NCBI RefSeq assembly: GCF_900109465.1
Contig: NZ_FOAZ01000004.1
Location: forward strand, 310,001 to 374,000
From: Streptacidiphilus jiangxiensis
GTDB taxonomy: Bacteria > Actinomycetota > Actinomycetes > Streptomycetales > Streptomycetaceae
DNA length: 64,000 bases
Direction of reading: 5' to 3'
Part shown: positions 18,773 through 44,001 of the stretch, piece after piece
Position numbering within the stretch: position 1 is the stretch's first letter
Layout of the letters: each line of letters starts with the position of its first letter
Notes under the pieces: model-generated
The model's input: the letters and a program-made list of their open reading frames with translations, nothing else
What the model was told of the DNA's origin: nothing
Database searches by the model: none
Made by a program: the position numbers and the translations under genes

Positions 18773-19582
18773 ATGAGCACGCCCGGGTATCAGCAGGTCC
18801 AGATCTCCGAGGTCGCGCGCGGCCGGCTGGACGGTTCGCGGCAGGGGCGCCCGTGCTTCACCTCCGACCTGTCCGTCAACGAGTTCGTGCTCGTCACCGA
18901 GTCGGGATTCGAGCCGCTCGGCATGGTGATGGGCACCAGCGTCTACCACGTCGGCGTCCAGTACGGGAACTGGAAGGTCAGCCAGGAGCTCGGCGTCCTC
19001 ACCCAGGCCATGTACAACGTCCGTGAGTTGGCCATGGCCCGGATGGAGGCCGAGGCCGCGCAGCTCGGCGCGGACGGCATCATCGGCGTCTCGCTGCGCC
19101 CGATGAACTACGGCTTCCTCGCCGACGTCGTCGAGTTCATCGCGGTCGGCACCGCGGTCAAGGCGACCGACGGCACCAACTACCGCGCCCCCAACGGCAA
19201 GCCCTTCACCACCAACCTCTCCGGCCAGGACTTCTGGACCCTCTGGCAGCACGGTTGGCTCCCGCGCCGCCTGGTGCTGGGCAACTGCGTCTACCACGTG
19301 GCCCACCAGACGCTGCGCCAGACGCTGGCCCAGGTCGGCCAGAACGCGGAGATGCCGCAGTTCACCCAGGCCCTGTACGACGCCCGCGAGCTGGCGATGG
19401 CCCGCATGCAGTACGAGGGCCAGCAGTTGGGCGCGGACGGCATCGTGGGCACGTTCGTCGACGACTTCCGCTACTGGGGCGAGCACGGCGTCGAGTTCTT
19501 CTCCCTCGGCACGGCGGTGAGCAAGGTCCGCCCGGACGTCAACCCGATCAAGCCGACGATGACCATGCCCTTGAACGGGTAG
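18773..19582 (+). CDS. Heavy-metal-binding (YbjQ-like) protein, tandem-domain
   Basis: 269 residues made of two homologous halves: VLVTESGFEPLGMVMGTSVYHVG ... RELAMARMEAEAAQLGADGIIGV in the first, RRLVLGNCVYHVAHQT ... RELAMARMQYEGQQLGADGIVG in the second. Each half matches the YbjQ/PF01906 fold with its conserved LGADGI motif, so the gene arose by internal duplication. Role unknown; the family forms pentameric rings, and metal binding is only suggested. ATG 18773 has a GGGGGAGG SD. It is divergent from the XRE-ImmA/PIN operon and shares its operator region. Confidence 0.8.
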   Translation: MSTPGYQQVQISEVARGRLDGSRQGRPCFTSDLSVNEFVLVTESGFEPLGMVMGTSVYHVGVQYGNWKVSQELGVLTQAMYNVRELAMARMEAEAAQLGADGIIGVSLRPMNYGFLADVVEFIAVGTAVKATDGTNYRAPNGKPFTTNLSGQDFWTLWQHGWLPRRLVLGNCVYHVAHQTLRQTLAQVGQNAEMPQFTQALYDARELAMARMQYEGQQLGADGIVGTFVDDFRYWGEHGVEFFSLGTAVSKVRPDVNPIKPTMTMPLNG

Positions 19583-19592
19583 CGGCACCCCT

Positions 19593-19671
19593 CAGGGGCG
19601 CGAGGCTCTGCCGATCCGCGACTGCTCCGCCGGCCTTCGGTCGGGAGACGCCCCCTGCGGGGGCGCCCCTG
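19593..19671. repeat. Dispersed palindromic element, copy 6 (variant)
   Basis: CAGGGGCGCGAGGCTCTGCC on the left and GGGGGCGCCCCTGG on the right, with an internal GGCCTTCGGTC part. It sits between the convergent YbjQ-like and monooxygenase genes and ends only a few bases from the monooxygenase stop. Confidence 0.6.
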
Positions 19672-19674
19672 GGG

Positions 19675-20904
19675 TCAGCGTCGGAACAGCCACGAGCCGA
19701 CGCGTCCCGTCCGTTTCTCCGCCTCGCGGGACGCGGCGACCGCCGCGAAGCCGTAGTCGCGCATCCGCTCCTCGTAGGCGCCCACGGCGCCGACCAGCGC
19801 GGCCGGGGAGTCGTCGCGCCGCTCCGCGAGTGCGCGGCAGAGCAGCGCAGCGTCCTGCAGCGCGGTGTTCGCGCCGGAGCCGCGGGCGGGGCTCATGGCG
19901 TGGATCGCGTCACCCAGCAGGGTCACCCGTCCCGGTGGCCAGGCCGGGACCCGTTCCGCGCTGCGGATCACGGCGAGGAAGGTCTGCTCGACCTCCGCCG
20001 CGGCGACCAGTTCGCGCAGGTCCGCGTGGAAGGTGCGGACCGCGCGGCAGGCGAGGGCGTGCAGTGCGGCGGGGTCGGCCTTCTCCAGCTCGGATTCCGC
20101 CGCGCCCAGGTCGCGGGCCCGCGCGGTGACGGCCCACATCAGGTAGTCGGGCGCGGGCGAGAGCCGGATCTCCGGCGCCAGTCGCGCCGCGGCCGCCGGG
20201 GGCTGTTCGCGCAGCCGGACCAGGCCGGTGGCCAGGCCGACACCGCCTCCGACGAACGCGGTGAACCCCTCCAGCAGCGCGGCCGGCAGCAGGGCCCGGG
20301 TCCGGTCGGTGAGGAGCGTGCGCCCGTACAGGCAGCGTCCGCCGGTGTCCTCGACGACGGCGTGCGGCAGCAGTTGGCGGCGCACGGTCGAGTGCACGCC
20401 GTCCGCGCCGACCAGCAGGTCCGCCCGTGCGGTGTCCCCGTCGGCGAAGCGCACCTGCACGCCCTGCCCGTCGATGGCGTAGCCGGTGACCGCGCGGCCG
20501 TGGTGGATCCTGTCCGCGAGCCCGGCGCAGAGCAGCTCGCGCAGCGTCCTGCGGTGCACGGAGGTGCTCAGGGTGCCGGGCGCGTACGGGTCCTGGCCGC
20601 TGTCGCCGGTGACCTCGTGCAGGACCCGGAGTCGTCGGCTCAGCACGGTGAAGCGGCGGCTGGGCTGTCCGCAGGTCGCCTGGAACAGCTCGAAGAGGCG
20701 CGGCGGCAGGCATCGCTCCAGCGCGAGCCCGGCGCGCGCGTCGAGATGCAGCCGGTAGCCCTGCGGCCGGATGTCCGGGCCGGTGTCCCGCTCGTAGACG
20801 TCGACCTCGATGCCGATCCGCCGCAGGCCCTGGGCCAGGCAGAGCCCGCCCAGTCCGGCTCCGGCCACGGCGACCCGCAGTTCCCCGTTGCGTGCTTCCC
20901 CCAT
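19675..20904 (-). CDS. FAD-dependent monooxygenase (p-hydroxybenzoate hydroxylase fold)
   Basis: 409-residue class A flavoprotein monooxygenase. The N-terminal GxGxxG ([19 protein letters not shown]) is followed by the acidic E of VDVYERD, then the DG motif ([16 protein letters not shown]) and the GD motif ([21 protein letters not shown]). It would hydroxylate an aromatic or polyketide-like substrate using NAD(P)H and O2, but no pathway genes are adjacent, so the substrate is unknown. ATG 20904 has GGGAAGAAGG upstream; the longer frame adds 19 residues. Confidence 0.87.
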
Positions 20905-21001
20905 GCGCGCCTTCTTCCCGTCCTCGGCGGGGGTAATCGGGCGGGCGCGCCGGGGAGTCATTTACCAAGATTCGTGGCATAAATGCGGTTATGTACGATT
21001 C

Positions 21002-22183
<1,182 letters not shown>

Positions 22184-22200
22184 TCGCAGCCACCGCGCGT

Positions 22201-22230
22201 GCCGCCCCGGCCGTGCAGGGCCGGGGCGGC
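22201..22230. terminator. Bidirectional hairpin terminator
   Basis: GCCGCCCCGGCC (22201-22212) pairs with GGCCGGGGCGGC (22219-22230), a perfect 12-bp stem with a 6-base loop. It lies between the convergent LAXTG protein and the MacB-type permease. Confidence 0.75.
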
Positions 22231-22233
22231 GCC

Positions 22234-23466
22234 TCACACCGTGTTCAGTGCCTCGGTCGGGGAGAGCCGGGCCGCGCGGGTGGCGGGGTAGAGGCCGGCC
22301 AGGGTGCCGATCAGGACGGCGGAGCCCAGGCCGGCCGCCAGGCCCTGCGCGGGGACCGACGCGGGCCAGTGGCGCCAGACGGCGTATCCGGCGCTGATCG
22401 CCGCGCCCAGGGCGACGCCCGCGAGGCCGCCGCCGCCGGAGAGCGCGACCGACTCGGCCAGGAACTGGAGCCGGATCTGCCCGCGCCCGGCGCCCAGGGC
22501 CCGGCGCAGGCCGATCTCCTGACGGCGCTCCAGCACCGAGATCACCATCGTGTTGGCCACGCCCACCCCGCCCACCAGCAGCGCGACCGCGCCGAGGCCG
22601 AGGAAGAGCGAGGTGAACGCCGACTTCGCGGCGAGCTGCGCCGCGAGCGCGTCGGAGGGGCGGCTGACGTTGACGTCCTCGGGGTGGCCGGGGTCGGCGG
22701 TCTGGGCGAGAACCCCCCGCACGGCGTCGACCTGCTCGTCCGTGGAGCGCTCGTACACCGTCGTCGGATGCCCGTCGAATCCGAGGTCGCTCTGCGCCTC
22801 GGGCCAGCCGACCAGGGCGGAGCGGTCCAGCTCCGGCGCCAGCGTGACGGGTGCCAGCACGCCGAGCACGGTGAACCAGCGCCCGGAGAGGTAGACCTGA
22901 CGGCCCGGCCGGTCGATGCCGAGGGTCGCGGCGGCCTGGGCGCCGAGCACCACCGCCGGATAGCGCTCGGTCGCGCCGTTGAGGAAGAGGCCCTGGGCGA
23001 GGGTGCCGCGCACGGTGCCCAGCAGGTCGGTGCGGGCGGCGACGACGGCGATGCCGCCGTTGGCCAGCGGGTCGATGCGGTCCGTGCGCCGGACCGTCGC
23101 GCCCTGGACCAGGCCGGTGTCGGTGGCCGACTGGACCGGGCCGATGCGGCGCACCATCGCCGCCGCGTCCAGCGGCAGTTCCGTCGGGTGCCCGAACACG
23201 TCCTGGCCCGGCGAGACGGTCAGCATGTTCGTGCCCAACTGGCCGATCCGGGCCAGCAGATCGGCCCGGCCCGCCTCGCTGATGCCGAGCACGGCCACCA
23301 TCGCGGCGATCCCGATGGCGATCCCGAGGCCCGACAGCAGCGCCCGCAGCGGCCGCCCGCGCAGACCCGCGACGCCGACGCGGAGCACGTCCGAGGCCCG
23401 CAGCCGGCTCGGCTGCGGCAGTGCGACGGTCGTGGTCACGGACATCGTTCCCGAGCGCGGGCTCAT
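22234..23466 (-). CDS. MacB/FtsX-type ABC transporter permease
   Basis: 410 residues with the MacB topology: one N-terminal helix ([26 protein letters not shown]), a large extracytoplasmic MacB_PCD domain, then three C-terminal helices beginning [41 protein letters not shown]. It couples to the ATPase directly upstream, whose stop overlaps its ATG (ATGA). The complex is probably a mechanotransmission-type efflux or lipoprotein-handling machine rather than a classical pump; the substrate is not evident. Confidence 0.9.
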
Positions 23467-24212
23467 CGCGCCGCCTCCCCGCCCGTGACCGTCGCGCGCT
23501 GTCGGGCCGGGCCGCTGTCGGAGCGCAGCCGACCGTCCAGGATCTCGACGACGCGCGGCAGCTGTTCGGCGATCGTGCGATCGTGGGTGATCACGGCGAT
23601 GGTGGACCCGCCCTGGTGCAGTTCGTGCAGCAGCGTCATGATCCCCGACCCGGCCGAGGAGTCCAGGTTGCCCGTCGGCTCGTCGGCCAGCACGACGGCC
23701 GGCCGGGCGACGATCGCGCGGGCGATCGCGACGCGCTGCCGCTCCCCGCCGGAGAGCTGCTGCGGGCGATGGCGCAGCCGGTGGCCGAGGCCGACACGGA
23801 GCAGCGCCTCCCGGGCCGCCTCCCGTCGGCGGCGCGCCGCGACGCCGCTGTACAGCAGGCCCTGCGCGACGTTCTCCACGGCGTCGAGGCCGGGGGAGAG
23901 GAAGAACTGCTGGAACACGAAGCCGATCGAGCGCGCCCGCAGCGCGGAGAGCCGCCGGTCGGGCAGCAGCGCGGTGTCGTGGCCGAGCAGCAGTACCTGC
24001 CCCTCGGAGGGGCGGTCGAGCGTGCCCATCAGCTGCAGCATCGTCGACTTGCCGGAGCCGGACCGGCCGACGATCGCCAGCATCTCGCCCGCGTCGACCC
24101 GCAGCGAGACACGGTCGAGCGCCCGCACGCCACCGGGGTAGACCCGGCTCACGGCGCGCAGCTCCAGCACGGTGGTGGCGGTGGTGGAAGTGGTGGCGTT
24201 CGTGGCGTTCAC
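23463..24212 (-). CDS. MacB/LolD-type ABC transporter ATP-binding protein
   Basis: 249 residues with Walker [11 protein letters not shown]-loop FVFQQFFL, signature [17 protein letters not shown], Walker [14 protein letters not shown] and switch His in AVITHDRT, all consistent with the LolD/MacB ATPase clade. GTG 24212 overlaps the adaptor's TGA (GTGA), so adaptor, ATPase and permease are coupled. Confidence 0.93.
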
Positions 24213-25399
24213 GAGGACGGCACCTCCACCGGCAGACCGGGCGTCAGCCCGGGGCCGCTGACCTCGACGCGTCCCTGCGCGAACATGCCCAGCGTGACCG
24301 GCAGCAGCGTCGTCGTCCCGCCGCTGCCGACCCGCTCGACGGCGTAGCCGCCGCCGGCCAGGGCGAGCAGAGCCGACACCGGGACGGTCAGCACACCGGT
24401 GTGCACCTCGCTGGTGAACGAAACCGTGACCGGTGCCCCGTCGAGCGACCCGGCCGCGTTCGGCTGGTCGAGGGTGATGTGGACGGGCAGCGTCGCACCC
24501 TGGACGGAGCCGCTGGCGGCCGTGCTCCCGGGGTCGGTGCCGCCCGACCCGGACGCTCCGGTGGGACCGTTGGCGCCGCCTGCCGCGCCGGAGCCCCCGG
24601 TGGAGGCCACCGTGCCGACGTCGGCGATGTGGCCGGTGACCGTCGCCCCGCCCGGCAGCGCCACCGTCACCGCCGCCCCGGCGCGGGCCAGCTGCTGCTG
24701 GTCCACCGGCAGCGGGACGGTGACCAGTCGCCGGGTGGAACTGAGCGAGAGCAGCACGCCCGTCGCGGGCGCGCCCAGCACGGCGCGGACCCCGGTCACC
24801 CGCACCTGGCCCGGCTCGACCACCACCTGGCCGGGCGCGAGGGTCCCGGTCTGCGGCCGGCCGAGGTCCGACTGCCACTGACCGACCGCGTCCGCCGTGG
24901 CCTGCGAGTAGTGGTCGTCGTCCGCGAGATCCGGCCCGTAGCCGAGAGCCCGCAGCGCCCGCTTGAGCTCCCTGACGTCGGGCCCGTCGTCGACGCCGAC
25001 CTCCAGGGTGCGCCACAGCGGCACCGAGCCGTAGACGAGCGGCACCGGCAGCCCGTCCACCTCGTAGACCCGTGAGCCCTCCGAGATCCGGTCGCCGACC
25101 GAGGGCAGCCAGGTGAGCGTGCCGCCGCCCGGGGCGGCCGGGACGTCGTAGCTGTCGGCGTAGCCGAGCGTCCCGTCGATCTGCTGGTACTGCCGCAGGT
25201 CCGCGCGCGTCACCGGCGCGGTGACGAGGTGCGCCGGCGCGGCGGCGGGCGCGGCGGAGCGGCCGCGCCAGGCGAGCACGCCACCGGCGGTGGCGCCGCA
25301 GCAGAGCACCAGCACCAACGCTCCGACCGCGATCCGGCGGCCGCGGTGCCGCTCCTCCTCCTCGACGACGGTGACCGGCGGGGTCTCCACCTCGGTCAT
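24209..25399 (-). CDS. Periplasmic adaptor-like protein with peptidoglycan-binding domain
   Basis: 396 residues. A short cytoplasmic N-terminus and one transmembrane helix (residues 20-45) precede an extracytoplasmic HlyD/MacA-like adaptor. Within it lies a PG_binding_1 domain ([21 protein letters not shown] ... [16 protein letters not shown]). The following beta-barrel region ends with [16 protein letters not shown]. Gram-positives use such adaptors with MacB-like permeases, and the wall-binding module suggests anchoring to peptidoglycan. The stop overlaps the ATPase start. Confidence 0.87.
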
Positions 25400-25403
25400 C
25401 CGT

Positions 25404-25973
25404 TCACCCCCCGCTGCCCGGCGCGGCCGAGGCCGAGGAGCCCGCGGCGCGGCAGGCCAGGACCGCCTGCTCGGTCTTCGGGTCGCCCGCGCCGCTGATC
25501 CGCAGCGGCTGGCCGGGCTGCGGGTCCGGCACCGAGATGCCGTGCGCGCGCAGGCACTCGGCGAGCGCCACCGCGCGGGCGACGGCCGTCGGGTCGCCGC
25601 CGCCCTTGCCGTCGGCGCCCAGGAAGTGCTGGCAGGTCTGCAGCGCCGCCTGGGTCGCCGCGTCGCCCTTGGTGCCGGCCGGCAGCTGCACGGTCGTGGC
25701 CCCGGCCTGCGGGTCGGGCACGTTCACGCCGTGCTGCCGCATGCACGAGGCGAACTGCAGCAACTGCGTGGTCCGGTCGGCGGTGGCGGAGGCCGAGGGG
25801 CTCGCCCCGGCTGCGCCGGTGCCGACCGCGGCGACGCCGGGGGATGGCGTGGAGCTGCCGCAGCCACTGAGCACGACCAGCGCGACGGCGGAGGCGAGCG
25901 TGGAGGCGAGAGCGCTCGGGAGCGGACGACGCGGTCGGCGACGGCCCGCTCCGGGTACTGACGATGTGGTCAT
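25404..25973 (-). CDS. Lipoprotein with duplicated CxxxxG-type repeat
   Basis: 189 residues. The signal peptide ends in a lipobox (VVLSGC). The mature part contains two similar segments, FASCMRQHGVNVPDPQAG and LAECLRAHGISVPDPQPG, each followed by a second Cys (LQTCQHFLG; VLACRAAG). This small extracytoplasmic repeat is common in actinobacteria next to MacB-type operons. It is the first gene of the operon, four bases before the adaptor, and divergent from the two-component system. Function unknown, perhaps ligand sensing for the transporter. Confidence 0.8.
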   Translation of the reverse strand: MTTSSVPGAGRRRPRRPLPSALASTLASAVALVVLSGCGSSTPSPGVAAVGTGAAGASPSASATADRTTQLLQFASCMRQHGVNVPDPQAGATTVQLPAGTKGDAATQAALQTCQHFLGADGKGGGDPTAVARAVALAECLRAHGISVPDPQPGQPLRISGAGDPKTEQAVLACRAAGSSASAAPGSGG

Positions 25974-26077
25974 GCCCCTGGTGTAGTGAGTCGGATGTTG
26001 CACAGCCGTCTCCGGCCACGGATACGGCGGCGAAAGGTCGCCGCCGATAGGACGGAGTGACGAAGGGGGTAGCAGGG

Positions 26078-26749
26078 ATGCGGGTACTCGTGGCCGAGGA
26101 CGAGGCGGTTCTCGCCGAGCTGGTGGCCGAGGGGCTGCGCGCGCACGCGATGGCGGTCGACGTCGTCCTCGACGGCGACGACGCACTGGAGCGTCTGGAC
26201 GTCAACGACTACGACGTGCTGGTGCTGGACCGGGATCTGCCGGGCACGCACGGCGACGAGGTCTGCCGGGAGCTGGTGCGGCGCGGGGCACGCACCCGGG
26301 TGCTGATGCTCACCGCCTACGCCGGGGTCGGCGACCTCGTCGAGGGGCTCGGCCTGGGCGCCGACGACTACCTGGGCAAGCCCTTCGACTACGAGGAGCT
26401 GGTCGCGCGGGTGCAGGCGCTGGGCCGTCGGGCCGGGCGGGCGCTGCCCCCGGTGCTGCGGGTCGGCGGCCTGGTGCTGGACCCGCCGCGTCGGCAGGCG
26501 TCCCGCGACGGGCGTCATCTGCGGCTCTCGCTCAAGGAGTTCGCCGTGCTCCGGGAGCTGATGGCGGCCGAGGGAGCGGTGGTCAGCACCGAGGAGCTGT
26601 TGGAACGGGCCTGGGACGAGAACGCCGACATGTTCACCAACGCGGTCCGGATCACGATGAGTCGGCTGCGGGCCAAGCTCGGCGAGCCGCCGATCATCGA
26701 GACGCTCACCGGGGTGGGGTACCGCATCCGGACGGAGTCGCCCGCGTGA
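26078..26749 (+). CDS. OmpR/PhoB-family response regulator
   Basis: 223 residues. The receiver has acidic residues EDE, phospho-Asp in VLVLDRDLPG and Lys in LGKPFDYEEL. A winged-helix output domain (LSLKEFAVLRELMAAEGAVV ... TGVGYRIRTE) completes the protein. ATG 26078 is preceded by AAGGGGG; a GTG at 26057 in the same frame is possible. It is divergent from the MacB-type operon (104 bases), so probably controls it. Confidence 0.92.
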   Translation: MRVLVAEDEAVLAELVAEGLRAHAMAVDVVLDGDDALERLDVNDYDVLVLDRDLPGTHGDEVCRELVRRGARTRVLMLTAYAGVGDLVEGLGLGADDYLGKPFDYEELVARVQALGRRAGRALPPVLRVGGLVLDPPRRQASRDGRHLRLSLKEFAVLRELMAAEGAVVSTEELLERAWDENADMFTNAVRITMSRLRAKLGEPPIIETLTGVGYRIRTESPA

Positions 26750-28002
26750 GCGGCCCCCGGCCGGGCCCCCGGCGACGCGCCCGCCGCCGCTCGGTGCGGC
26801 TGACGCTCACCGTCCTGTACAGCGCGCTCTTCCTGGCGGCCGGCACGGTCCTGCTGGGCCTGGTCTACCTGCTGTTCCGGCAGGGGCTCAGCCACAACGT
26901 CACCGTCCTGCCCAAGTCCGACCTGCCGGGCCACAGTGTCAGCGGGCTGAGCGCCCGGCAGATCAAGGAGCTGGCGGACCACTTCAACCAGGCCACGCTG
27001 CACCAGCTGATCGTCACCTCGGCGTCGGCGCTCGCGGCGACCATGGCGGCGGCGGTGCTGCTGGGCTGGTGGACGGCGGGGCGGGTGCTGCGTCCGCTGC
27101 ACCGGATCACCGCCACCGCGCGCCGGCTGTCGTTCGAGAACCTGCACGAGCGGATCGCCCTGGACGGCCCCGCCGACGAGCTGCGCGAGCTGGCCGACAC
27201 CTTCGACGCGATGCTGGACCGTCTCGACTCGGCGTTCGACAGCCAGCGCCGGTTCGTGGCCAACGCCTCCCACGAGCTGCGGACGCCGCTCGCCGTCCAG
27301 CGCGCCGCCATCCAGATCCGGCTGGCCCGGGCCACCCCGGCGGAGATCCCGCGCGTCCAGGCCGAGCTGCTCGCCGCCAACCGGCGCAGTGAGCAGCTGA
27401 TCGAGGGACTGCTGCAGCTGGCGCGCAGCGACCGGGGGCTGACCAGGCGCGAGCCCGTGGAGCTGGTGGAGGTCCTGCGCGAGGAGACCGAGGCGTGTCG
27501 GGCGGTCGCCCAGAGCGTCGGACTGTCCCTGCGCCGGGTCGATCCGGAGGCGCCGGAGACTCCCGCGACCGTCCTGGGCGACCGCGTGCTGCTGGCGCAG
27601 CTCGTGGTGAACCTGCTGCACAACGCGATCCGCTACAACGTCCGAGGCGGTGCGGTCGCCGTCGGCGTGACCGTCGACGGCGCGCAGGCCCGGCTGAGTG
27701 TCGCCAACACCGGCCCCGTCGTCCCCGTCGACCAGGTCGAGCAGCTCTTCGAGCCGTTCCGCCGGCTCGGCCGGCGCGGTGAGCCCGCCGGCCCGACGGC
27801 GGAGCTGGGCTTCTCCGCCGGGCTCGGCCTGTCCATCGTCCGGTCGGTCGCCACCGCCCACGGCGGCACGGTGACGGCGACGGCCAACCCCGCCGGCGGT
27901 CTCACCGTGGAGGCCGTCCTGCCGCTGGCCGAACCTTCCGCGCGCCGCGACCCCGGCTCCCGTCGGACGGCGGAGCCGCGCCCGGCCCGGGCCGCCTCGT
28001 GA
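26746..28002 (+). CDS. Membrane sensor histidine kinase
   Basis: 418 residues. Two transmembrane helices (about 18-40 and 85-108) enclose a short extracytoplasmic loop. HAMP, HisKA (FVANASHELRTPLAVQ) and HATPase (LVVNLLHNAIRYNVRGG; GLGLSIVRSVA) domains follow. GTG 26746 overlaps the regulator's stop (GTGA). It likely senses a membrane or wall signal relevant to the divergent MacB-like exporter. The convergent ABC gene begins its stop only five bases after this stop. Confidence 0.92.
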   Translation: MSGPRPGPRRRARRRSVRLTLTVLYSALFLAAGTVLLGLVYLLFRQGLSHNVTVLPKSDLPGHSVSGLSARQIKELADHFNQATLHQLIVTSASALAATMAAAVLLGWWTAGRVLRPLHRITATARRLSFENLHERIALDGPADELRELADTFDAMLDRLDSAFDSQRRFVANASHELRTPLAVQRAAIQIRLARATPAEIPRVQAELLAANRRSEQLIEGLLQLARSDRGLTRREPVELVEVLREETEACRAVAQSVGLSLRRVDPEAPETPATVLGDRVLLAQLVVNLLHNAIRYNVRGGAVAVGVTVDGAQARLSVANTGPVVPVDQVEQLFEPFRRLGRRGEPAGPTAELGFSAGLGLSIVRSVATAHGGTVTATANPAGGLTVEAVLPLAEPSARRDPGSRRTAEPRPARAAS

Positions 28003-28007
28003 CGGCC

Positions 28008-30095
28008 TCATCCGGCGGGGGCGTCGAGGCCGCGTGCCGCGAGAGCGGCGGCGATCTTGGCGGCGCGGACCGCGTCCGAGCCGGCGGGCGAGGCTGCCGC
28101 GTCGGGGCCGAGGTAGGCCTCCGCCTGGAGCGCGAAGAGGCGGGCGTAGCGGCCCCGCAGGGCCATCAGCTCCGGGTGGGTGCCCTGTTCGGCCACCCGG
28201 CCGTCCTCCAGGACCAGGATGGTGTCGGCCTCGCGGACCGTGGAGAAGCGGTGCGAGATGTACACCGTGGTGCGCCCGTGGGCGAGTTCGCGCAGGCGGG
28301 TGAAGAGCGCGTGCTCCGCCTCGGCGTCCAGCGCGGAGGTCGGCTCGTCCAGCACCAGCAGCGGCGTCTCCCGCAGGAACGCCCGCGCCAGGGCGACCTT
28401 CTGCCACTCGCCCCCGGACAGCTCCACGCCCGCCGCGAACCACTTGCCCAGCGGGGTGTCGTAGCCGGCGGGCAGCGCGTCCAGCAGGGCGTCGGCGCCC
28501 GCGCGGCGGGCCGCGTCCGCGACGGCGGGGCGGTCCTCCAGACGGGATACCTCGCCCAGGCCGATGTTCTCGGCGGCCGTGGCCTGGTAGCGGACGAAGT
28601 CCTGGAACAGGGCGGCCACCTGGCCGCGCAGCGCGTCCGGGTCGAGGCGGCGGATGTCCGTGCCGTCCAGCAGGATCCGGCCCTCGGCCGGGTCGTAGAG
28701 CCGGCACAGGAGCTTGATCAGCGTCGACTTGCCGGCGCCGTTGCGGCCGACCACGGCCAGCGTCCGCCCGGGCGCGAGGGTGAAGCTGACCTCGCGCAGC
28801 GCCCACGCGTCGCTGCCCGGGTAGCGGAAGGACACGTTCTCGAAGACCACCTCGCCGCGCAGCGGGGCGGGCAGCGGCAGGGGTTCCTCGGCGTCCGCCT
28901 CCGGGGCCTCGACGGCGAGGAGTTCGTAGAGCTTGCTGAGGTAGAGGTTGTTCTCGTACATGCCGGTCAGGCCCTGGAAGACGCCCTGGATGGCACCCTG
29001 GAGCGCGGTCGCCGCCGCCGTGTAGAGCGTCAGGTCGCCGAGCGAGAGCCGACCGTGGACGGCGGCCAGTGCGACGTAGAGGTAGGTGAGCGACCCGGCC
29101 AGCACGGTCAGTCCGCTCCAGGCGGCGCCCACCAGGTAGCGGCGGGTCACCACCGAACGCAGCCGGCGGTAGGCGGCGGCGCCCAGCAACCGGAAGCGGT
29201 CCGTCAGGTACGGCGCCAGACCGAAGACCTTCACCTCCTTGGCGAAGGTGTCCGTGGTCACCAGCCGGGAGAGGTACTCCATCCGGCGGCGCACCGGCGA
29301 GGACCACTGGGCCAACAGGAAGCCGCGCATCCCGTACCGCGAGTCGGAGACGAACGCCGGGACCGGTGCGACCAGGGCGACCAGGGCGAGCCACGGGCTC
29401 AGGCCGATCAGCAGTGCCGCCATGCCGACGAAGGTGATCACCGTCTGCACCAGCCCGAAGGCGCCGCCGATCATCGTGACCGGCCGGGTCGCGGCCTCCT
29501 GCTGCGCCTGGCGCAGCAGGTCGTAGGAGTCCGGGCCCTCGAAGAACGGCAGCCCGAGCCGGCCCGCGTGCCGCATCACCCGCAGCTGGACGCTCTGCGC
29601 AGCCTTCTCCTGCAGCAGTTGCTGGGTGATGTTGCGCAGCGCCGCACAGCCGGTGCTGACGGCGTAGATGGCGAACTGCGCCCCGGCCAGCACCACGATG
29701 GCGCTCGCGCTGCTCATCTCCGGCAGCCGCACCTGGCCCCAGGGCAGCGGCAGCGCGAGCGGCACCCGGTCGGGCAGGTGGCGCACCCGCAGCTCCACCG
29801 CGCGCACCACGGTGTTGACCAGCAGCCGCCCGGTGACGGCCACGGCCGCCGGGACCAACCCGGCCACCACCGTGGCCAGCCCGAGCAGCACCGTCAGCAG
29901 CGGCCCGGCCCGCCAGACCAGCGCCAGGACCCGGCCGAGCCCGACGACCGTCGCGCCGACCGCGCGCAGCCCGCGCGGGGCGGCCGTCGCGGGCCCCGGC
30001 ACCGTCGTGAGGTCGGCGTCCTCCTGGCCGACCGGCCCGGTCAGGCCGCTGCCGCCGGTCACGGCGGCCCGCGAGGTGTGCACGATCTGGACCAT
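28008..30095 (-). CDS. ABC exporter, fused membrane and ATPase domains
   Basis: 695-residue half-transporter. A six-helix exporter domain (about 40-345) is followed by an ATPase with Walker A VVGRNGAGKSTLIKL, Q-loop ALFQDFVRYQ, signature VELSGGEWQKVALARAF, Walker B LLVLDEPTSALD and switch His in VYISHRFST. It has no N-terminal C39 peptidase domain, so it would not itself cleave a leader. Its start is 44 bases from the divergent S9 peptidase, and it is the best candidate exporter for the peptide encoded at 33301. ATG 30095 has a GGTGGAGA SD. Confidence 0.9.
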   Translation of the reverse strand: MVQIVHTSRAAVTGGSGLTGPVGQEDADLTTVPGPATAAPRGLRAVGATVVGLGRVLALVWRAGPLLTVLLGLATVVAGLVPAAVAVTGRLLVNTVVRAVELRVRHLPDRVPLALPLPWGQVRLPEMSSASAIVVLAGAQFAIYAVSTGCAALRNITQQLLQEKAAQSVQLRVMRHAGRLGLPFFEGPDSYDLLRQAQQEAATRPVTMIGGAFGLVQTVITFVGMAALLIGLSPWLALVALVAPVPAFVSDSRYGMRGFLLAQWSSPVRRRMEYLSRLVTTDTFAKEVKVFGLAPYLTDRFRLLGAAAYRRLRSVVTRRYLVGAAWSGLTVLAGSLTYLYVALAAVHGRLSLGDLTLYTAAATALQGAIQGVFQGLTGMYENNLYLSKLYELLAVEAPEADAEEPLPLPAPLRGEVVFENVSFRYPGSDAWALREVSFTLAPGRTLAVVGRNGAGKSTLIKLLCRLYDPAEGRILLDGTDIRRLDPDALRGQVAALFQDFVRYQATAAENIGLGEVSRLEDRPAVADAARRAGADALLDALPAGYDTPLGKWFAAGVELSGGEWQKVALARAFLRETPLLVLDEPTSALDAEAEHALFTRLRELAHGRTTVYISHRFSTVREADTILVLEDGRVAEQGTHPELMALRGRYARLFALQAEAYLGPDAAASPAGSDAVRAAKIAAALAARGLDAPAG

Positions 30096-30139
30096 CAGCT
30101 CTCCACCAAAACCGCAAGGGACAGGACAGGGGGAACGTC

Positions 30140-32008
30140 ATGACGGACGGCCAGCACGAGGTCCCGCTCATACCGCGCGAGGTGTTGTTCGGGAACCCGG
30201 CGCGGATGAGTCCCGCACTCTCCGCCGACGGGGAGCGGATCGCCTTCCTCGCGCCGCACGAGGGGGTGCTCAACGTCTGGGTCGGCTCCTGGCGCAAGGG
30301 CGACCACCGGCCGGTCACCGACGACCGCGGTCGTGGCGTGCGCACCTTCGCCTGGGCGCACGACGGACGCCACCTGCTGTGGCTGCAGGACCAGGACGGT
30401 GACGAGAACACCCGCCTGTACGCGGTCGATCCGGCCGACGGCGTCACCCGGGAGCTGACCCGGTTCCCCGGCGTGCAGACCCGCATCTGCGGACTCAGCC
30501 GGGAGGTCCCGGGCACCGTCCTGGTCGGCCTCAACCTGCGCCGCCCGGATCTGCACGATGCCTACCGGCTCCACCTGGAGACCGGCGAGCTCGTCCTCGC
30601 CGCCGAGAACGAGGGCTTCTCCGGTTGGATCACCGACGCCGCGCTGCGGGTGCGCGGAGCGGTGCGGGCGCTGCCCGAGGGCGGCTGCGAGATCCTGGCC
30701 CGCGACGACGAGCAGGCCCCGTGGCGGGTGGTGCACGCCGTCGGCGCCGAGGACGAGTCGACCACCCGGCCACTCGGCTTCGACGCGGAGGGGCGTCGGC
30801 TGCTGCTGCTCTCCTCCAAGGACGCCGAGACGGCCCGGCTGCTCTCCCTCGACCTGACCGACCCCGACGCGCCGGGCGAGGTGCTCTACGCCGACCCGGA
30901 GTTCGACGTCGTCGGGGTCGGCTTCGAACCAGGCGGGCGCCGCCCGCAGTTCGTGCAGGTGCGGCGCGAGCGTGGCGAGACCGAGGTGCTCGACCCGGCC
31001 CTCGCCGAGGACTTCGCGCTGCTGGACGCCCACGCGCCCGGCGACCTGACGGTGCTCGGCCGCGACGACGCCGACCGGTACTGGCTGGTCCAGTACAACA
31101 GCGACCGGGCGCCGGCCGCCTACTGCGTCTACGACCGCGTCGGGCGCACCGTGGAGTTCCTCTTCAGCCACCTGCCGGAGCTGGAGGGCTATCGGCTGGC
31201 GCCCATGGAGCCCTTCTCGTTCCGCGCCCGCGACGGGCTGACCGTCCGCGGCTACCTGTCCTTCCCGCCCGGCGCCGAGCGGCGGGCGCTGCCCGTGGTG
31301 GTCTGCGTCCACGGCGGCCCGTGGACCAGGGACGTGTGGGGCTACCGGGCCGAGCCGCAGTGGCTGGCCAACCGCGGCTACCTGTGCGTCCAGGTCAACT
31401 TCCGCGGCTCGACCGGCTACGGCAAGCGGTTCGTCAACGCGGGCGACCGGCAGTGGGGCGCGGCGATGCAGGACGACCTGCACGACGCGGTGGCGCACCT
31501 GGTCGCGTCGGGGCTCGCGGACCCGGACCGGGTGGCGATCCACGGCGGCTCGTACGGCGGTTATGCCGCGCTCGCCGGGGTCGCCTTCACCCCGGACGCG
31601 TTCCGCTGCGCGGTCGCCGTGGCCGCGCCGTCCGACCTGCGGTCCTTCATCACCTCGGTGCCCGCGACCTGGGGTCCGCTGCGCGGCACCCTGCACCGCC
31701 GGATCGGCGATCCGGTGGTCGACGCCGAACTGCTCCGCGAGCGTTCGCCGTTGGCGTCGGTGGACCGGATCCGGGTGCCGCTGCTGGTCGCCCACGGCGC
31801 CAACGACCCGCGGGTGCGGCAGGAGGAGGCGGAGCAGCTGGTCGCCGCGCTGGAGCGGAACGGGGTGCCGCACGAGTACCTCCTCTTCCGGGACGAGGGC
31901 CACGGGTTCGTCCGGCCACGCAACCGGCTGGCCTTCTACGCGGCCGCCGAACGCTTCCTGGCCGAGCACCTGGGGGGCCGGGCCGAATCGAGCGAGCAGC
32001 CGGACTGA
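30140..32008 (+). CDS. S9-family serine peptidase (prolyl-oligopeptidase-like)
   Basis: 622 residues with no signal peptide, so cytoplasmic. The N-terminal part is a degenerate beta-propeller ([19 protein letters not shown] and similar blades). The C-terminal alpha/beta-hydrolase carries the oxyanion HGGPW, nucleophile Ser in [12 protein letters not shown], Asp in [14 protein letters not shown] and His in DEGHGFVRP. Family members cut short peptides, often after Pro. A similar enzyme (FlaP) removes leaders of class III lanthipeptides, and lasso isopeptidases belong to the same clan. Here it may trim or inactivate the peptide at 33301. SD AGGGGGA precedes ATG 30140. Confidence 0.9.
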
Positions 32009-32022
32009 CGCACGAGCGGAGC

Positions 32023-32048
32023 GGGGCCGGTCCTCACGGACCGGCCCC
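32023..32048. terminator. Bidirectional hairpin terminator
   Basis: GGGGCCGGTCC (32023-32033) pairs with GGACCGGCCCC (32038-32048) around TCAC. It lies between the convergent S9 peptidase and JmjC genes. Confidence 0.7.
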
Positions 32049-32066
32049 CGGGCCCTGCTCCGGCGC

Positions 32067-33296
32067 TCAGCCGAGCGTCAGCAGGCCCTCGCGCAGCAGC
32101 CGGCGGACCAGGACGAGACGGCCTTCGTCGTCCAGGCGGCCGGGCAGCGACGCGGGGGTGAAGCTGCCCTCGCCGGAGACCGCGAACCGGACGTCCTCCG
32201 CGACCTTGGCGGGGAAGCGGAGCACCTTGCCGTGGAACTCCAGCCGCACGCCGGCCGAGTCCTCGGTGAGCTGCCACAGCAGGTCGGACCGCCGCCGGAC
32301 CCGGGTACCGGTCTCCAGGGAGCTCAGCCGCTCCAGGTCCACCAGGTGACCCCGGAGCACGGGCTGACGGCCCACCAGGGCCCGGCTGACGGCCCGGTCG
32401 ATCAGACCCTCGGGCGCTGCCGCGTCCGGCACCGACCGCAGCAGCGCGTCCAACGTCCGGCGGGCCTCCTGCCGCAGCGCCTCGTCGCCGACGAAGCCGG
32501 GCGGCAGGGCCTCCCGGTAGCGGGGGTCGCTCTCCAGCACCTGGTCCAGCGCCTCGCGCAGCAGCGTGGCGTAGAGGACCGGCAGTACTCCGACCGTCAG
32601 GTGCAGCGAGGCCTCGCCGTTCGAGGTGGCGTCGTGCACGGTGCCACGCGGCATGTACATCAGGTCGCCGGCCCTGAGGTCGAACTCCTGGACCGGTTCG
32701 CCGGGCCCGCCCTGCGGGCGGACGTACGGCTGCGAGGTCAGCGGCAGCCGGGTCGGCGAGTCGTACAGGCGCCAGTGCTTGGAGCCCCAGATCTGCAGCA
32801 CGAACACGTCGTGCGTGTCGTAGTGGGTGTGCAGCCCCTGCTGGCCGGCCGGCGTGAGGTAGGCGTTGGCCTGCATGGCCGCGCTGAACTCCTCCGACAG
32901 CGCGCGCACCAGCGCGCCCAGCGGCTCCCAGCGCTCGTGCAGGAACTTGAAGACGACCGTGGACCCCTGGCGGTACTGCTCGTAGAGCACCTCCAGGGCG
33001 TTGGCCTGCCCGCCGGGACCGGAGGCCACCATCTCCGCCAGCGGGATCTCCCGACCCGACACCACCAGGCGCAGGTCGGAGGAGCGGATGCTGGAGGTGG
33101 AGAGGATCCGGTCGACGTCGTGCAGGGTCAGCGGGTCGGCGTAGTAGTCGGGGTCCTCGCGGTGCACCACGAGCGGCTTGCGCTCCCAGTACTCGCGCTT
33201 GAAGGACGCGGGGTCGAGGGGACGGAGCAACCTGGTGAGATCGAGGGAAGGCCGCGCCGAGGGCGCGGCCTTCCGTCGATCGTGCGTGACCGTCAT
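32067..33296 (-). CDS. JmjC/cupin_4 2-oxoglutarate-Fe(II) hydroxylase
   Basis: 409 residues, similar in layout to the ribosomal-protein hydroxylase ROXA/NO66 group. Iron-binding residues are visible as H158-x-D160 in THYDTHDVFVLQIWG and H221 in YMPRGTVHDATS, with a 2-oxoglutarate-binding Lys in GSKHWRLYD. The C-terminal winged-helix-like region (about 250-409) matches the same family. Such enzymes hydroxylate a side chain of a protein or peptide. It starts four bases after the 48-residue peptide gene, so that peptide is the prime candidate substrate. A 13-bp hairpin spans codons 8-17; a TTG at 33230 is an alternative start beyond it. Confidence 0.85.
   Translation of the reverse strand: MTVTHDRRKAAPSARPSLDLTRLLRPLDPASFKREYWERKPLVVHREDPDYYADPLTLHDVDRILSTSSIRSSDLRLVVSGREIPLAEMVASGPGGQANALEVLYEQYRQGSTVVFKFLHERWEPLGALVRALSEEFSAAMQANAYLTPAGQQGLHTHYDTHDVFVLQIWGSKHWRLYDSPTRLPLTSQPYVRPQGGPGEPVQEFDLRAGDLMYMPRGTVHDATSNGEASLHLTVGVLPVLYATLLREALDQVLESDPRYREALPPGFVGDEALRQEARRTLDALLRSVPDAAAPEGLIDRAVSRALVGRQPVLRGHLVDLERLSSLETGTRVRRRSDLLWQLTEDSAGVRLEFHGKVLRFPAKVAEDVRFAVSGEGSFTPASLPGRLDDEGRLVLVRRLLREGLLTLG
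33246..33274 (-). terminator. Perfect 13-bp hairpin after the peptide gene (possible attenuator)
   Basis: GGAAGGCCGCGCC (33246-33258) and GGCGCGGCCTTCC (33262-33274) pair with a 3-base loop, 27 bases beyond the peptide stop and inside the JmjC 5' end. In many peptide clusters a stem-loop at this place lowers expression of the enzyme relative to the precursor. No U-tract follows, so partial read-through or mRNA stabilisation is expected. Confidence 0.55.
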
Positions 33297-33300
33297 CCGG

Positions 33301-33447
33301 TCAGATCACCGGGTCGCGCGGGTCGTTGTCGGAGATGACGATGACGCTGTCGGACGGGTCGTTGTCGGAGATGACGAACTCCGGCTTCGCCAGCGGCGGC
33401 TGGCCGACCTCGATCTCCTCGGGCGAAAGCGAGAAGCTCTCTTCCAT
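33301..33447 (-). CDS. 48-residue peptide with duplicated acidic C-terminal motif; candidate RiPP precursor
   Basis: The N-terminal half (MEESFSLSPEEIEVGQPPLAKP) is acidic with an FxLxxxEI-like leader motif. The C-terminal half is two near-identical 12-mers, VISDNDPSDSVI (residues 25-36) and VISDNDPRDPVI (37-48), ending exactly at the stop. There is no Cys, Lys or aromatic residue in the repeats; candidate modification sites are Asp, Asn, Ser and Pro. ATG 33447 has GGGGGA five bases upstream; the longer frame adds 20 residues without an SD. JmjC follows by four bases. I do not recognise the family, and a leader/core reading is inference. Confidence 0.65.
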   Translation of the reverse strand: MEESFSLSPEEIEVGQPPLAKPEFVISDNDPSDSVIVISDNDPRDPVI

Positions 33448-33502
33448 TTCGATCCCCCAGTTCTCCTGGACTCCCCGGGGCGGTCGCCTCGGGACGCCGA
33501 GA

Positions 33503-33533
33503 AGCATGCCCCGGGCCGTGCGTGTACCGTCAA
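33503..33533 (-). promoter_or_regulatory. Candidate promoter of the peptide-JmjC operon
   Basis: Minus-strand TTGACG (33533-33528) and CATGCT (33508-33503) with a 19-base spacer, about 55 bases upstream of the peptide ATG. The -35 is good, the -10 weak and the spacing slightly long. Confidence 0.35.
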
Positions 33534-33726
33534 GCGGCGCCGGAACCGGAATGACCGGTATTCCCCCTGGTCAGCGTCACAGAAGTCCTGCGTCCTGTAC
33601 GCCTTTCCCGGGACGCCGGAGGCCCCGACCGTATCCGTGCATCCGAGACATGAGAGGGAAACGGACTGGAGACGTCGACGAAATGTACGCCGGTCTAGAC
33701 AGGTTCTCGCTGTACGAAGGAGAGCC

Positions 33727-34227
33727 ATGGCAGATACGACGAGCAGCGCGGAGCAACGTCTCCGCGCTGTGCAGGAGATGCTGGCGGGGGAGCCGGTGGC
33801 CGAGGTGTCGCGCAGGTATGAGGTCTCCCGACAGTCGCTGTACCGCTGGCGGAGCCGATACGAGAAGGAGGGTTTGGCGGGCCTTCAGGCCCGCTCCAGA
33901 CGACCGCACAGCAGCCCGGGGCGGTTGCGCGGCTCGGTCGAGTCGCTCATCTGCGCGTTGCGGGCGGAGCAGCCCGGATGGGGTTCGCGGCGGCTCGTGA
34001 CGGAGCTGGCCCGGCGCGGCATCGTGCCGTTGCCGTCCCACTCCACGGTCCACCGGGTGCTGGTGCGCAACGAGTTGATCGCCAAGGTCCGCGACGGAGC
34101 GGCCTCGCACTGGGCGGAGGCCGGCGACGAGCGGGACCGCCGGATCGCCCGCCTGGAGGAGGAGGTGCGACGCCTCACCGCGCGACTGGACTCGGCCGCC
34201 CCGCGTGATCCCGCGCCCTGTCACTGA
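33727..34227 (+). CDS. IS481-type transposase HTH remnant fused to a coiled coil
   Basis: 166 residues. The N-terminal helix-turn-helix region (VAEVSRRYEVSRQSLYRWRSRYEKEG) and the second DNA-binding region (LRAEQPGWGSRRLVTELARRG; SHSTVHRVLVRNELI) match the first third of IS481-family transposases. The catalytic DDE domain is missing. It is replaced by a heptad-rich coiled coil (DRRIARLEEEVRRLTARLDSAA). Good AAGGAG SD and intact coding suggest a domesticated DNA-binding protein rather than a dead transposon. Divergent from the peptide operon (279 bases), it may regulate it. Confidence 0.75.
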   Translation: MADTTSSAEQRLRAVQEMLAGEPVAEVSRRYEVSRQSLYRWRSRYEKEGLAGLQARSRRPHSSPGRLRGSVESLICALRAEQPGWGSRRLVTELARRGIVPLPSHSTVHRVLVRNELIAKVRDGAASHWAEAGDERDRRIARLEEEVRRLTARLDSAAPRDPAPCH

Positions 34228-34318
34228 TGTCACCGGGCGTCCCGCACGTGCCGCCCGTCCGGGAACGGAACGGGCCTCGACGGGGACGACCGAAAACCGA
34301 CGGTCGACGGATGGCGTC

Positions 34319-34353
34319 CCTCCGGTCGGCGGGGTCTCCCCGCCGACCGGAGG
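34319..34353. terminator. Strong 16-bp hairpin terminator
   Basis: CCTCCGGTCGGCGGGG (34319-34334) pairs perfectly with CCCCGCCGACCGGAGG (34338-34353). It lies downstream of the IS481-like gene in the convergent gap to msrB. Confidence 0.75.
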
Positions 34354-34382
34354 TCGGGTCGAACGGCCGGCGAACGGGACAG

Positions 34383-34412
34383 CGGCGCCTCCCGGGAGTC
34401 CGGGAGGCGCCG
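34383..34412. terminator. Hairpin terminator serving msrB
   Basis: CGGCGCCTCCCGG (34383-34395) pairs with CCGGGAGGCGCCG (34400-34412), a 13-bp stem with a GAGT loop. It is the second terminator in this gap and lies just beyond the msrB stop. Confidence 0.7.
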
Positions 34413-34433
34413 CCGGGGTCCGCGAGTCCGGGC

Positions 34434-34841
34434 TCACGCCTCCTTGGGGCGCAGCGTCAGGGAGATGGAGTTGATGCAGTACCGCTGGTCCGTCGGAGTG
34501 TTGTAGCCCTCGCCGTCGAAGACGTGGCCCAGGTGGGAGCCGCACTTCGCGCAGCGGACCTCGACGCGGCGCATGCCGTGACTGTCGTCCTTGATGTACT
34601 GGACGCGGTCCTCCGCCAACGGCGCGAAGTAGCTCGGCCAGCCGCAGTGCGACTCGAACTTGGTCTCCGAGCTGAACAGCTCGTTGCCACAGGCGCGACA
34701 GGCGTACACGCCCACCGTCTTGGTGTCGGTGTACTCACCCACGAACGCCCGCTCCGTGCCGGCCTCGCGCAGCACCGCGTACTCGGCCGGGGAGAGCTGC
34801 TCGCGCCACTCCGCGTCGGTCTTCTCGATCTCGTAGCCCAT
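34434..34841 (-). CDS. msrB: Peptide-methionine (R)-S-oxide reductase
   Basis: 135 residues. It reduces methionine-R-sulfoxide in proteins. Two zinc CxxC pairs (VYACRACGNELF; VRCAKCGSHLGHVF) and the catalytic Cys in RYCINSISL are present. ATG 34841 has an AAGGAG SD and lies 31 bases after murC, so it is probably co-transcribed with it. Confidence 0.95.
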   Translation of the reverse strand: MGYEIEKTDAEWREQLSPAEYAVLREAGTERAFVGEYTDTKTVGVYACRACGNELFSSETKFESHCGWPSYFAPLAEDRVQYIKDDSHGMRRVEVRCAKCGSHLGHVFDGEGYNTPTDQRYCINSISLTLRPKEA

Positions 34842-42599: not shown

Positions 42600-42808
42600 C
42601 ACAGCCGACGGACGCCGGCATCGGGCACGCCGAGTCCAGCCCCTCGACGCCGGGAAACGACGAGTCACCAGGGCCGGAGCGGGGGAACCACAGGTAAGCC
42701 GCCCCTGCCCTTTTCCGGGTCGGGGCTCGGGGTGAAGCCGCGTCCGCGCGGCCGGGCCACACTTCTCCGGTCCGAATCCGACAGCTCACCTCGCAGGCGT
42801 CGGAGAGG
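42600..42808 (+). ncRNA. Cyclic-di-AMP riboswitch (ydaO/yuaA type)
   Basis: Hallmarks of the actinobacterial ydaO aptamer are visible: GGAGCGGGGGAACCAC, the joining segment GGGGTGAAGCCGCG, and the 3' closing helix CCGAC (42778-42782) with GTCGG (42799-42803) around AGCTCACCTCGCAGGC. The SD of the GH16 gene (GGAGAGG, 42802-42808) overlaps the closing helix, which allows translational control. In actinobacteria this class usually governs wall-remodelling enzymes. Boundaries are approximate. Confidence 0.78.
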
Positions 42809-42816
42809 CCCGCCCC

Positions 42817-44001
42817 ATGCGCCGCACCCTGTCGACCCCTGCCCGCATAGCCGCGCTCAGCGCCGCACCCGCCCTGCTGCTCGGTGGCGTCGCCGCCACC
42901 CAGGCCCAGGCCGCGACGCCCCGCGTCACCGAGACCGGCCTGACCGCGACCACCACCGCCTCCGGCACCACCGCGAAGCTGACGGTCACGTCGAGCTCCT
43001 GCGTGACCTTCCGTTCCCTGGGCGTGGCCGTCCGCGACGCGGCCGGCCACAACCTGGACTTCCCGCAGTGGCGCAGCAACGCGCGCGTCTGCTCCGGCGG
43101 CCTGACCCTCACCGCCTCCCGTCAGTTCCCGGCCGGCAGCTACACCATGTTCGGTGCGTACCTGGACACCGCCGGCACCTGGCACAACCTGGCCTCGAAG
43201 ACGCTGACGGTCGGGGGCTCCTCCGCCAAGCCGACGCCCGCTCCGACGCCGACGCCGACGTCCACGCCGACGCCCTCCCCGTCGACCCCGGCCGCCACCG
43301 GCTCCATCCCGGCGGGCGTCGCCTCCTCCACCACGCCCATCTGGTCGGACGAGTTCAACTCGCTGAACACGAGCCGCTGGGTCTCCAGCACCACGACGTC
43401 GTACCAGTACGGGAACCACAACCCGAACGACAACAAGCTCGACTGGCTGGACCCGAACGACGTCTCCGTCGCGAACGGCGTCGCCACCTTCACCGCGCAG
43501 CCCAGCTCGCACACCCTGGAGAACGGCCAGCAGGCCTGGACCACGGGCCTGCTCACCACCGAGGGTTCGCAGGAGGGCTTCCAGGTCAAGACCGGCGACT
43601 ACGTCGAGGCCCGCGTCAAGCTGCCGAGCCAGCAGGGTGCCTGGCCGGCGCTGTGGACCTGGAAGAACGGCAACGGCGAGATCGACTCCTTCGAGTACCA
43701 CCCGGACAACCCGAACCTGCTGGAGCTCTCCAACCACGTCAACGCCGCGCACGACTACTACACCGACGCGAACGCGATCAAGCCGGGCGGCTGGGTCACC
43801 ATCGGTACCAAGTACGGCGCGAACTCGGTCGACTGGTACATCAACGGCGTCAAGGTCTACTCGGACAACACGGGCGTGGGCGCGAACTGGTCCGCGTACC
43901 TGATCCTGAACCTGTCCCTCTCCGCCGGTCAGTACCACCCGGCCCCGAGCGGCAGCACCCCGATCACGTTCGCGGTCGACTACCTGCGCGTCTACCACTG
44001 A
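42817..44001 (+). CDS. Secreted GH16 family glycosidase (beta-glucanase-like)
   Basis: 394 residues. A signal peptide (cleavage after AQA) precedes an N-terminal beta-sandwich module (about 35-130) with a Cys pair. A Thr-Pro linker then leads to the GH16 catalytic domain (about 160-394) with the diagnostic NGEIDSFEY motif (nucleophile Glu, Asp, acid-base Glu). It probably hydrolyses beta-1,3 or mixed-linked glucans outside the cell. Placement behind a c-di-AMP riboswitch ties it to osmotic or wall status rather than to sugar catabolism. Confidence 0.88.
   Translation: MRRTLSTPARIAALSAAPALLLGGVAATQAQAATPRVTETGLTATTTASGTTAKLTVTSSSCVTFRSLGVAVRDAAGHNLDFPQWRSNARVCSGGLTLTASRQFPAGSYTMFGAYLDTAGTWHNLASKTLTVGGSSAKPTPAPTPTPTSTPTPSPSTPAATGSIPAGVASSTTPIWSDEFNSLNTSRWVSSTTTSYQYGNHNPNDNKLDWLDPNDVSVANGVATFTAQPSSHTLENGQQAWTTGLLTTEGSQEGFQVKTGDYVEARVKLPSQQGAWPALWTWKNGNGEIDSFEYHPDNPNLLELSNHVNAAHDYYTDANAIKPGGWVTIGTKYGANSVDWYINGVKVYSDNTGVGANWSAYLILNLSLSAGQYHPAPSGSTPITFAVDYLRVYH

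Follow-up and report, generated by a model that had tools for sequence, protein, structure and literature searches.

The window analysed here, a stretch of 64,000 nucleotides from Streptacidiphilus jiangxiensis, encodes a 48-residue peptide next to a JmjC Fe(II)/2-oxoglutarate oxygenase, and the question is whether these genes and their neighbours form a RiPP pathway and, if so, of what kind. A sequence-only reading had outlined such a cluster at 28008-34227, consisting of the peptide, the JmjC enzyme, an S9 peptidase, an ABC exporter and a transposase-derived DNA-binding protein. All five genes are real, intact and open at their positions, but the limits were too narrow. ORF comparison showed that eleven genes travel together in relatives, so that the conserved block spans 22234-34227 (~12 kb) and includes six more genes, two for a two-component system, one for a lipoprotein and three for a MacAB-like pump with its adaptor. 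The features of the block and of the insertion around it are as follows.

19583-34433, strand-neutral: insertion of ~15 kb relative to congeners, holding the block and two genes without counterpart in the other copies
19675-20961: FAD monooxygenase gene inside the insertion, absent from the other block copies
21047-22183: secreted protein gene inside the insertion, absent from the other block copies
22234-23445, minus strand: MacB/FtsX-type ABC permease, at the far block boundary (Pfam/NCBIfam family search and comparison with relatives)
23463-24212, minus strand: MacB-type ABC ATPase (family search and comparison with relatives)
24209-25399, minus strand: MacA-like periplasmic adaptor with PG_binding_1 domain (family search and comparison with relatives)
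25404-25973, minus strand: small lipoprotein with lipobox LSGC and two repeats of the type C-[ML]-R-x-x-G-[VI]-x-V-P-D-P, matching no Pfam family above the cut-off (family search and comparison with relatives)
26078-26749, plus strand: OmpR-type response regulator (family search and comparison with relatives)
26746-28002, plus strand: sensor histidine kinase with HAMP, HisKA and HATPase_c domains (alternative start at 26794)
28008-30095, minus strand: fused TMD-NBD ABC exporter of 695 aa, the proposed peptide exporter (family search)
30140-32008, plus strand: serine peptidase of the S9 (prolyl-oligopeptidase) family, 622 aa, the proposed leader peptidase
32067-33296, minus strand: JmjC Fe(II)/2-oxoglutarate oxygenase, 409 aa (Pfam, fold model)
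33301-33447, minus strand: precursor peptide gene, 48 aa (homologues, purifying selection)
33666-33703, strand-neutral: conserved promoter block GTCTAGAC...ACATTTCGTCGACGTCTCC, a possible operator by alignment of seven intergenic regions
33727-34227, plus strand: stand-alone HTH protein derived from the N-terminus of an IS481-type transposase, divergent from the peptide gene and probably the cluster regulator

Our interpretation is that the block is probably a biosynthetic gene cluster of RiPP type that arrived by horizontal transfer, because a short precursor with conserved leader and two-repeat, Asp-rich core precedes the JmjC gene and is accompanied by the S9 peptidase, the ABC exporter, the two-component system, the lipoprotein and the MacAB-like pump.

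The co-conservation that the earlier reading had proposed to look for was observed for every gene, and in the same order, in seven species of Streptomycetaceae, namely the window strain, G015, G338, G637, G460, G543 and S. clavuligerus F613-1, where the block is on pSCL4. The count is seven since S. fulvorobeus NBRC 15897 (L023) and Streptomyces sp. CBMA291 (L024) probably duplicate G460 and G543, respectively. Two genomes from another family of the class, G1022 and G1143, encode the same block proteins, the larger of which are 45-67% identical, with the JmjC, ABC and S9 genes co-directional after the peptide gene. The S9 gene is present in 9/9 block copies, and an N-terminal extension of the ABC exporter (~25 residues, SGLTGPxD) is common to the aligned copies including that of G1022. 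Outside 22234-34227, no gene of the window was shared with the five G genomes, if generic similarity among ABC proteins is disregarded.

In four congeners, the genes that flank the insertion (18773-19582 and 34434-34841) are only 0.4-1.5 kb apart and form an empty site, as against ~15 kb in the window strain. No JmjC gene of the block clade was detected in any of 13 congeners, and the gene was present in 4 of the 394 Streptomyces species sampled. Outside the block family, a class-wide search turned up mainly distant JmjC genes that lack such peptides. Of 101 Streptomyces genomes, 35 have relatives of the efflux adaptor, in most cases at 40-46% identity, and the two most similar ones (55-56%) come from genomes with the peptide cluster. 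Since the adaptor family also occurs elsewhere in Streptomyces, the efflux module is not specific to the peptide.

Four bases separate the peptide gene from the JmjC start at 33296. The peptide contains two VISDNDP repeats and can be divided into a leader, MEESFSLSPEEIEV..., and a core, EFVISDNDPSDSVIVISDNDPRDPVI, that bears both repeats. Homologues of 48 aa, about 60-85% identical, were found in the six other Streptomycetaceae and homologues of 45 and 50 aa in G1022 and G1143, at the same position in every relative cluster. It had been argued at the outset that the proposal would fail if the frame lacked purifying selection or if homologues of the JmjC gene lacked an adjacent VISDNDP-type peptide. 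Comparison of six 48-aa orthologues gave pS 0.349 and pN 0.123, with 15, 8 and 26 variable sites at codon positions 1, 2 and 3, and none of the close homologues of the JmjC gene was without such a peptide beside it. The codon-position bias and the constant location of the homologues argue against a chance frame, and the peptide is, by these sequence comparisons, a real gene under selection.

The nine precursors can be aligned end to end, with a leader [ST]-L-x-x-x-E-I-x-V followed by Pro or Ala, then [DEQ]-F, and then the core. The cores consist of [DN]-[NP]-D-P-x-D repeats, the second of which is degenerate in G1022, while the two are near-identical in G1143 (TICNPDPYDRCV and TLCNPDPYDRCV). 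The letters VISDNDP vary, and the constant part is D-P-x-D. An Asn-specific reading of the fixed motif was considered and abandoned because P replaces the N of DNDP in three precursors (repeat 2 of S. clavuligerus, G1022 and G1143). The precursors had no match in NCBIfam, nor in Pfam for the two that were searched there. A search with the leader motif, which had been composed after inspection of the peptides of this clade and its sister clade, gave no matches among 3,807 ORF starts in 65 control loci (384 kb); within the window it recovered the peptide of the block and none of the other 572 ORF starts.

Among the features expected of a RiPP cluster, nine genomes encode a precursor whose leader is conserved and whose core is repeated, the JmjC gene as modifying enzyme directly follows the precursor gene in 9/9 copies, and peptidase and exporter genes (S9 and ABC) are in the cluster. 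Assignment to a common class failed, as anticipated. Family searches of the eleven genes gave no match to lanthipeptide synthetases (LanB/C, LanM, LanKC, LanL or the class V set), YcaO, MNIO, radical SAM (including B12-radical SAM) or ATP-grasp enzymes, and the Streptomycetaceae cores are without Cys, so that the block lacks what defines a lanthipeptide, graspetide or MNIO RiPP cluster. We found no description of the JmjC/peptide combination, or of such an S. clavuligerus RiPP, in the open-licence literature. Because of this and of the missing class features, the block appears to represent a new, apparently undescribed RiPP-type family, pending chemistry.

Several steps in the biosynthesis can be proposed from the gene content. 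Maturation would include removal of the leader by the S9 enzyme, whose gene is convergent to the JmjC gene and whose product has a Peptidase_S9 domain (E 2e-51), a triad-like S471/D556/H588 and no visible signal peptide. The S9 enzyme FlaP cleaves the leader of a class III lanthipeptide after Pro (PMC10885120), and the candidate P1 residue is Pro or Ala in 9/9 precursors here. Cleavage after this residue and before [D/E/Q]F would free a core of ~26 residues, a prediction that could go either way. The class III lanthipeptide clusters described in the same study, which use a FlaP-type S9 enzyme or paired M16 peptidases, resemble the block in the S9 gene and two related loci (L048 and L051, below) in the M16 pair; they differ in that the block has no LanKC or other lanthionine synthetase. 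The fused ABC protein, whose gene start is 44 bases away from that of S9 and in which a domain search found no C39 domain, would then probably export the core peptide.

The two-component system, the lipoprotein and the MacAB-like pump are rather likely to sense and remove the product, in self-protection or signalling. Given that sensor kinase, response regulator and lipoprotein are all within the conserved block, the peptide might instead be a secreted pheromone for this two-component system, processed by the S9 enzyme and exported, with the JmjC enzyme as an accessory. We regard this as somewhat unlikely, as the JmjC gene is the constant neighbour of the peptide; a pheromone would in any case be compatible with a modified peptide rather than opposed to it. 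The last gene, at the block edge, corresponds to the transposase-derived protein of the sequence-only reading. It does contain an N-terminal IS481-type HTH without the catalytic domain, but is confined to the Streptomycetaceae, where it was found in 7/7 copies, and was not found in the G1022 or G1143 copies; in Streptomycetaceae we would expect it, with reasonable confidence, to control the divergent promoter.

In the RiPP-type pathway that we favour, the second step would be the oxidation. The JmjC enzyme has the HxD...H triad noted earlier (Pfam JmjC_2, E 2e-27), and its Fe ligands H158, D160 and H221 do not vary among 18 aligned relatives. The core repeats might be oxidised at the Fe(II)/2OG site, where Asp (or Asn) of D-x-D-P-x-D would most probably be beta-hydroxylated, an assignment for which we see about an even chance; Pro hydroxylation or ring formation would be the alternatives. 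Core conservation is the reason for ranking Asp (or Asn) first and Pro next. Hydroxylation of Arg, His or Orn was rejected for the block clade because no residue of these kinds is conserved in the core. With one modifying enzyme alone, the modification may be modest only.

That the enzyme instead makes a ring or cross-link by oxidative macrocyclisation finds a parallel in the 2OG-dependent RiPP macrocyclisation reported in 2025 (J Am Chem Soc, as referred to in passages of PMC12710340). The characterised JmjC relatives hydroxylate, including the RiPP enzyme BipG, and macrocyclisation seems rather improbable to us, the sequence itself being neutral between a +16 and a -2 Da product.

BipG, from the biphenomycin cluster, is a JmjC gamma-Orn hydroxylase that acts on a RiPP precursor (PMC12707348). 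Together with the related PbsQ (PMC12257519) it provides a close parallel to the hydroxylation proposed for the block, being likewise a JmjC Fe(II)/2OG enzyme of a RiPP cluster that acts on the precursor core. In biphenomycin biosynthesis, however, the JmjC reaction is one step among those of MNIO, B12-radical SAM and arginase enzymes, whereas the JmjC is the sole recognisable modifying enzyme of the block, and neither Arg or Orn nor an aromatic triplet is conserved in the block core.

The closest solved structures are of another kind. A model of the whole JmjC protein (pLDDT 84.8) matched NO66 and MINA53 over the full length, and the enzyme has the fold of the NO66/MINA53/YcfD group (PF08007), with JmjC barrel, helical middle and winged C-terminus as well as the HxD...H ligands, at about 24% identity over the fold alignment. 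With JmjC and winged C-terminal domain combined, it has the architecture of a ribosomal oxygenase (ROX). As NO66 and MINA53 are histidyl hydroxylases of ribosomal proteins, the enzyme could be of ribosomal-oxygenase type and act on a ribosomal or house protein, the peptide being a small partner or an unrelated neighbour. The genomic context favours another substrate: the gene is patchy and island-like in occurrence, absent from congeners and constantly linked to the conserved peptide, peptides with this leader accompany its sister clade as well, and the cores of the block clade contain no His. We therefore consider a ribosomal or house substrate very improbable. The shortness of the frame and its position four bases upstream of the JmjC gene could also suggest a translational leader or a chance ORF, which is barely conceivable for a sequence with amino-acid conservation, repeats, selection, homologues in two families and, in S. 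clavuligerus, annotation as a protein (WP_009999493.1).

How a RiPP-modifying JmjC would recognise its precursor is suggested by its last 85 residues (~325-409), which form an RRE-like winged domain that was modelled alone at pLDDT 94.9. Fold comparison ranked NO66 first, followed by the RREs of PbtF, TbiB1, ThcOx, MccB and McbB, including structures of PbtF with a bound leader fragment and of TbiB1 with leader. The matches beyond NO66 are structural only and weak (Foldseek E 0.04-0.7), yet of the same kind of protein each time. Fold comparison was the informative method, since the domain had no Pfam PqqD match and its profile gave only chance-level matches against PDB sequences and Pfam. The same winged domain is present in ribosomal oxygenases, for which no leader peptide is known. 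Unlike in the NO66/MINA53/YcfD group, the C-terminal domain of the block JmjC recurs as a module fused to other proteins. In G1143, it is fused in frame to an FTR1 iron permease (E 3.6e-32; L124 14559-15695) directly downstream of the S9 gene, and the RRE-like domain of this fusion is 61% identical to the sister clade as compared with 37% to the neighbouring JmjC. Beside the G1057 JmjC, it is fused to a thioredoxin-like protein (E 7e-16; L123 6961-7650, downstream of the ABC gene), so labelled from a CxxC motif near the N-terminus rather than a Pfam match. The precursor candidate in G1057 is MSTLTVEQVTV...DADIDNDYDN. A thiol-redox gene is located at two loci with Cys-bearing precursors, MauE/AhpC-TSA in G1022 and the thioredoxin-like fusion in G1057.

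The occurrence of the domain apart from JmjC suggests a portable module, putatively for peptide recognition. As the first step of the pathway, it would be likely to dock on the leader motif SLxPxEIxV. PF08007 JmjC proteins with an RRE-like fold are mentioned in RiPP-like contexts in passages of PMC12710340; these passages describe neither the block nor its precursor, and no precursor was found for the eukaryotic cases they discuss.

The JmjC tree places the peptides in a wider setting. The seven Streptomycetaceae block enzymes form a clade at 100/99 support, which G1022 joins at 85/57, and the sister clade consists of proteins 44-50% identical to the block JmjC (support 92/93). At 10 of its 13 loci there is a different Asp/Asn-rich peptide nearby whose leader is of the same kind, as in MAKSLNPEDITV...DDNDTNDSGG; no recognisable precursor was found at the other 3. 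An MsbA-type ABC gene adjoins the JmjC gene at most of the loci. Two of them have paired M16 peptidases between the ABC gene and the Asp/Asn-rich precursors (L048 4536-7203 and L051 12344-14981), and these pairs are leader-peptidase candidates by analogy with paenithopeptins. At another locus, a RimK-type ATP-grasp gene (L049 8409-9359, G133) lies directly before the sister-clade JmjC gene, and no precursor was recognised there. In a third clade, about 35% identical and found in four Streptomycetaceae (L062, L063, L064, L065), the JmjC gene is preceded by ORFs of EGPADGGAAGTPGVHDGGADGG repeats that contain His, possibly a separate family of peptide substrates.

The leader motif and the winged domain provide a search handle for similar clusters that class-based mining would miss, and the predicted portable recognition domain would tie a ribosomal-oxygenase-type JmjC to RiPP biosynthesis. 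The peptide family is testable, its main candidate enzyme being a single oxygenase, and one of its carriers is S. clavuligerus, a species with available Cas9 vectors and pSCL4-cured strains (PMC8743545). On a bolder and, in our estimate, unlikely reading, the new RiPP family is defined by a ROX-like JmjC with built-in recognition domain, and its product is a metal-binding peptide (iron or calcium) with beta-hydroxy-Asp. If this were true, the FTR1 fusion in G1143 would belong to a system built on a ribosomally encoded metallophore, and the NO66/MINA53-type winged domains and the RREs would be of common ancestry.

Elsewhere in the window, a c-di-AMP riboswitch (Rfam RF00379) at 42656-42812 is located before the gene at 42817-44001.
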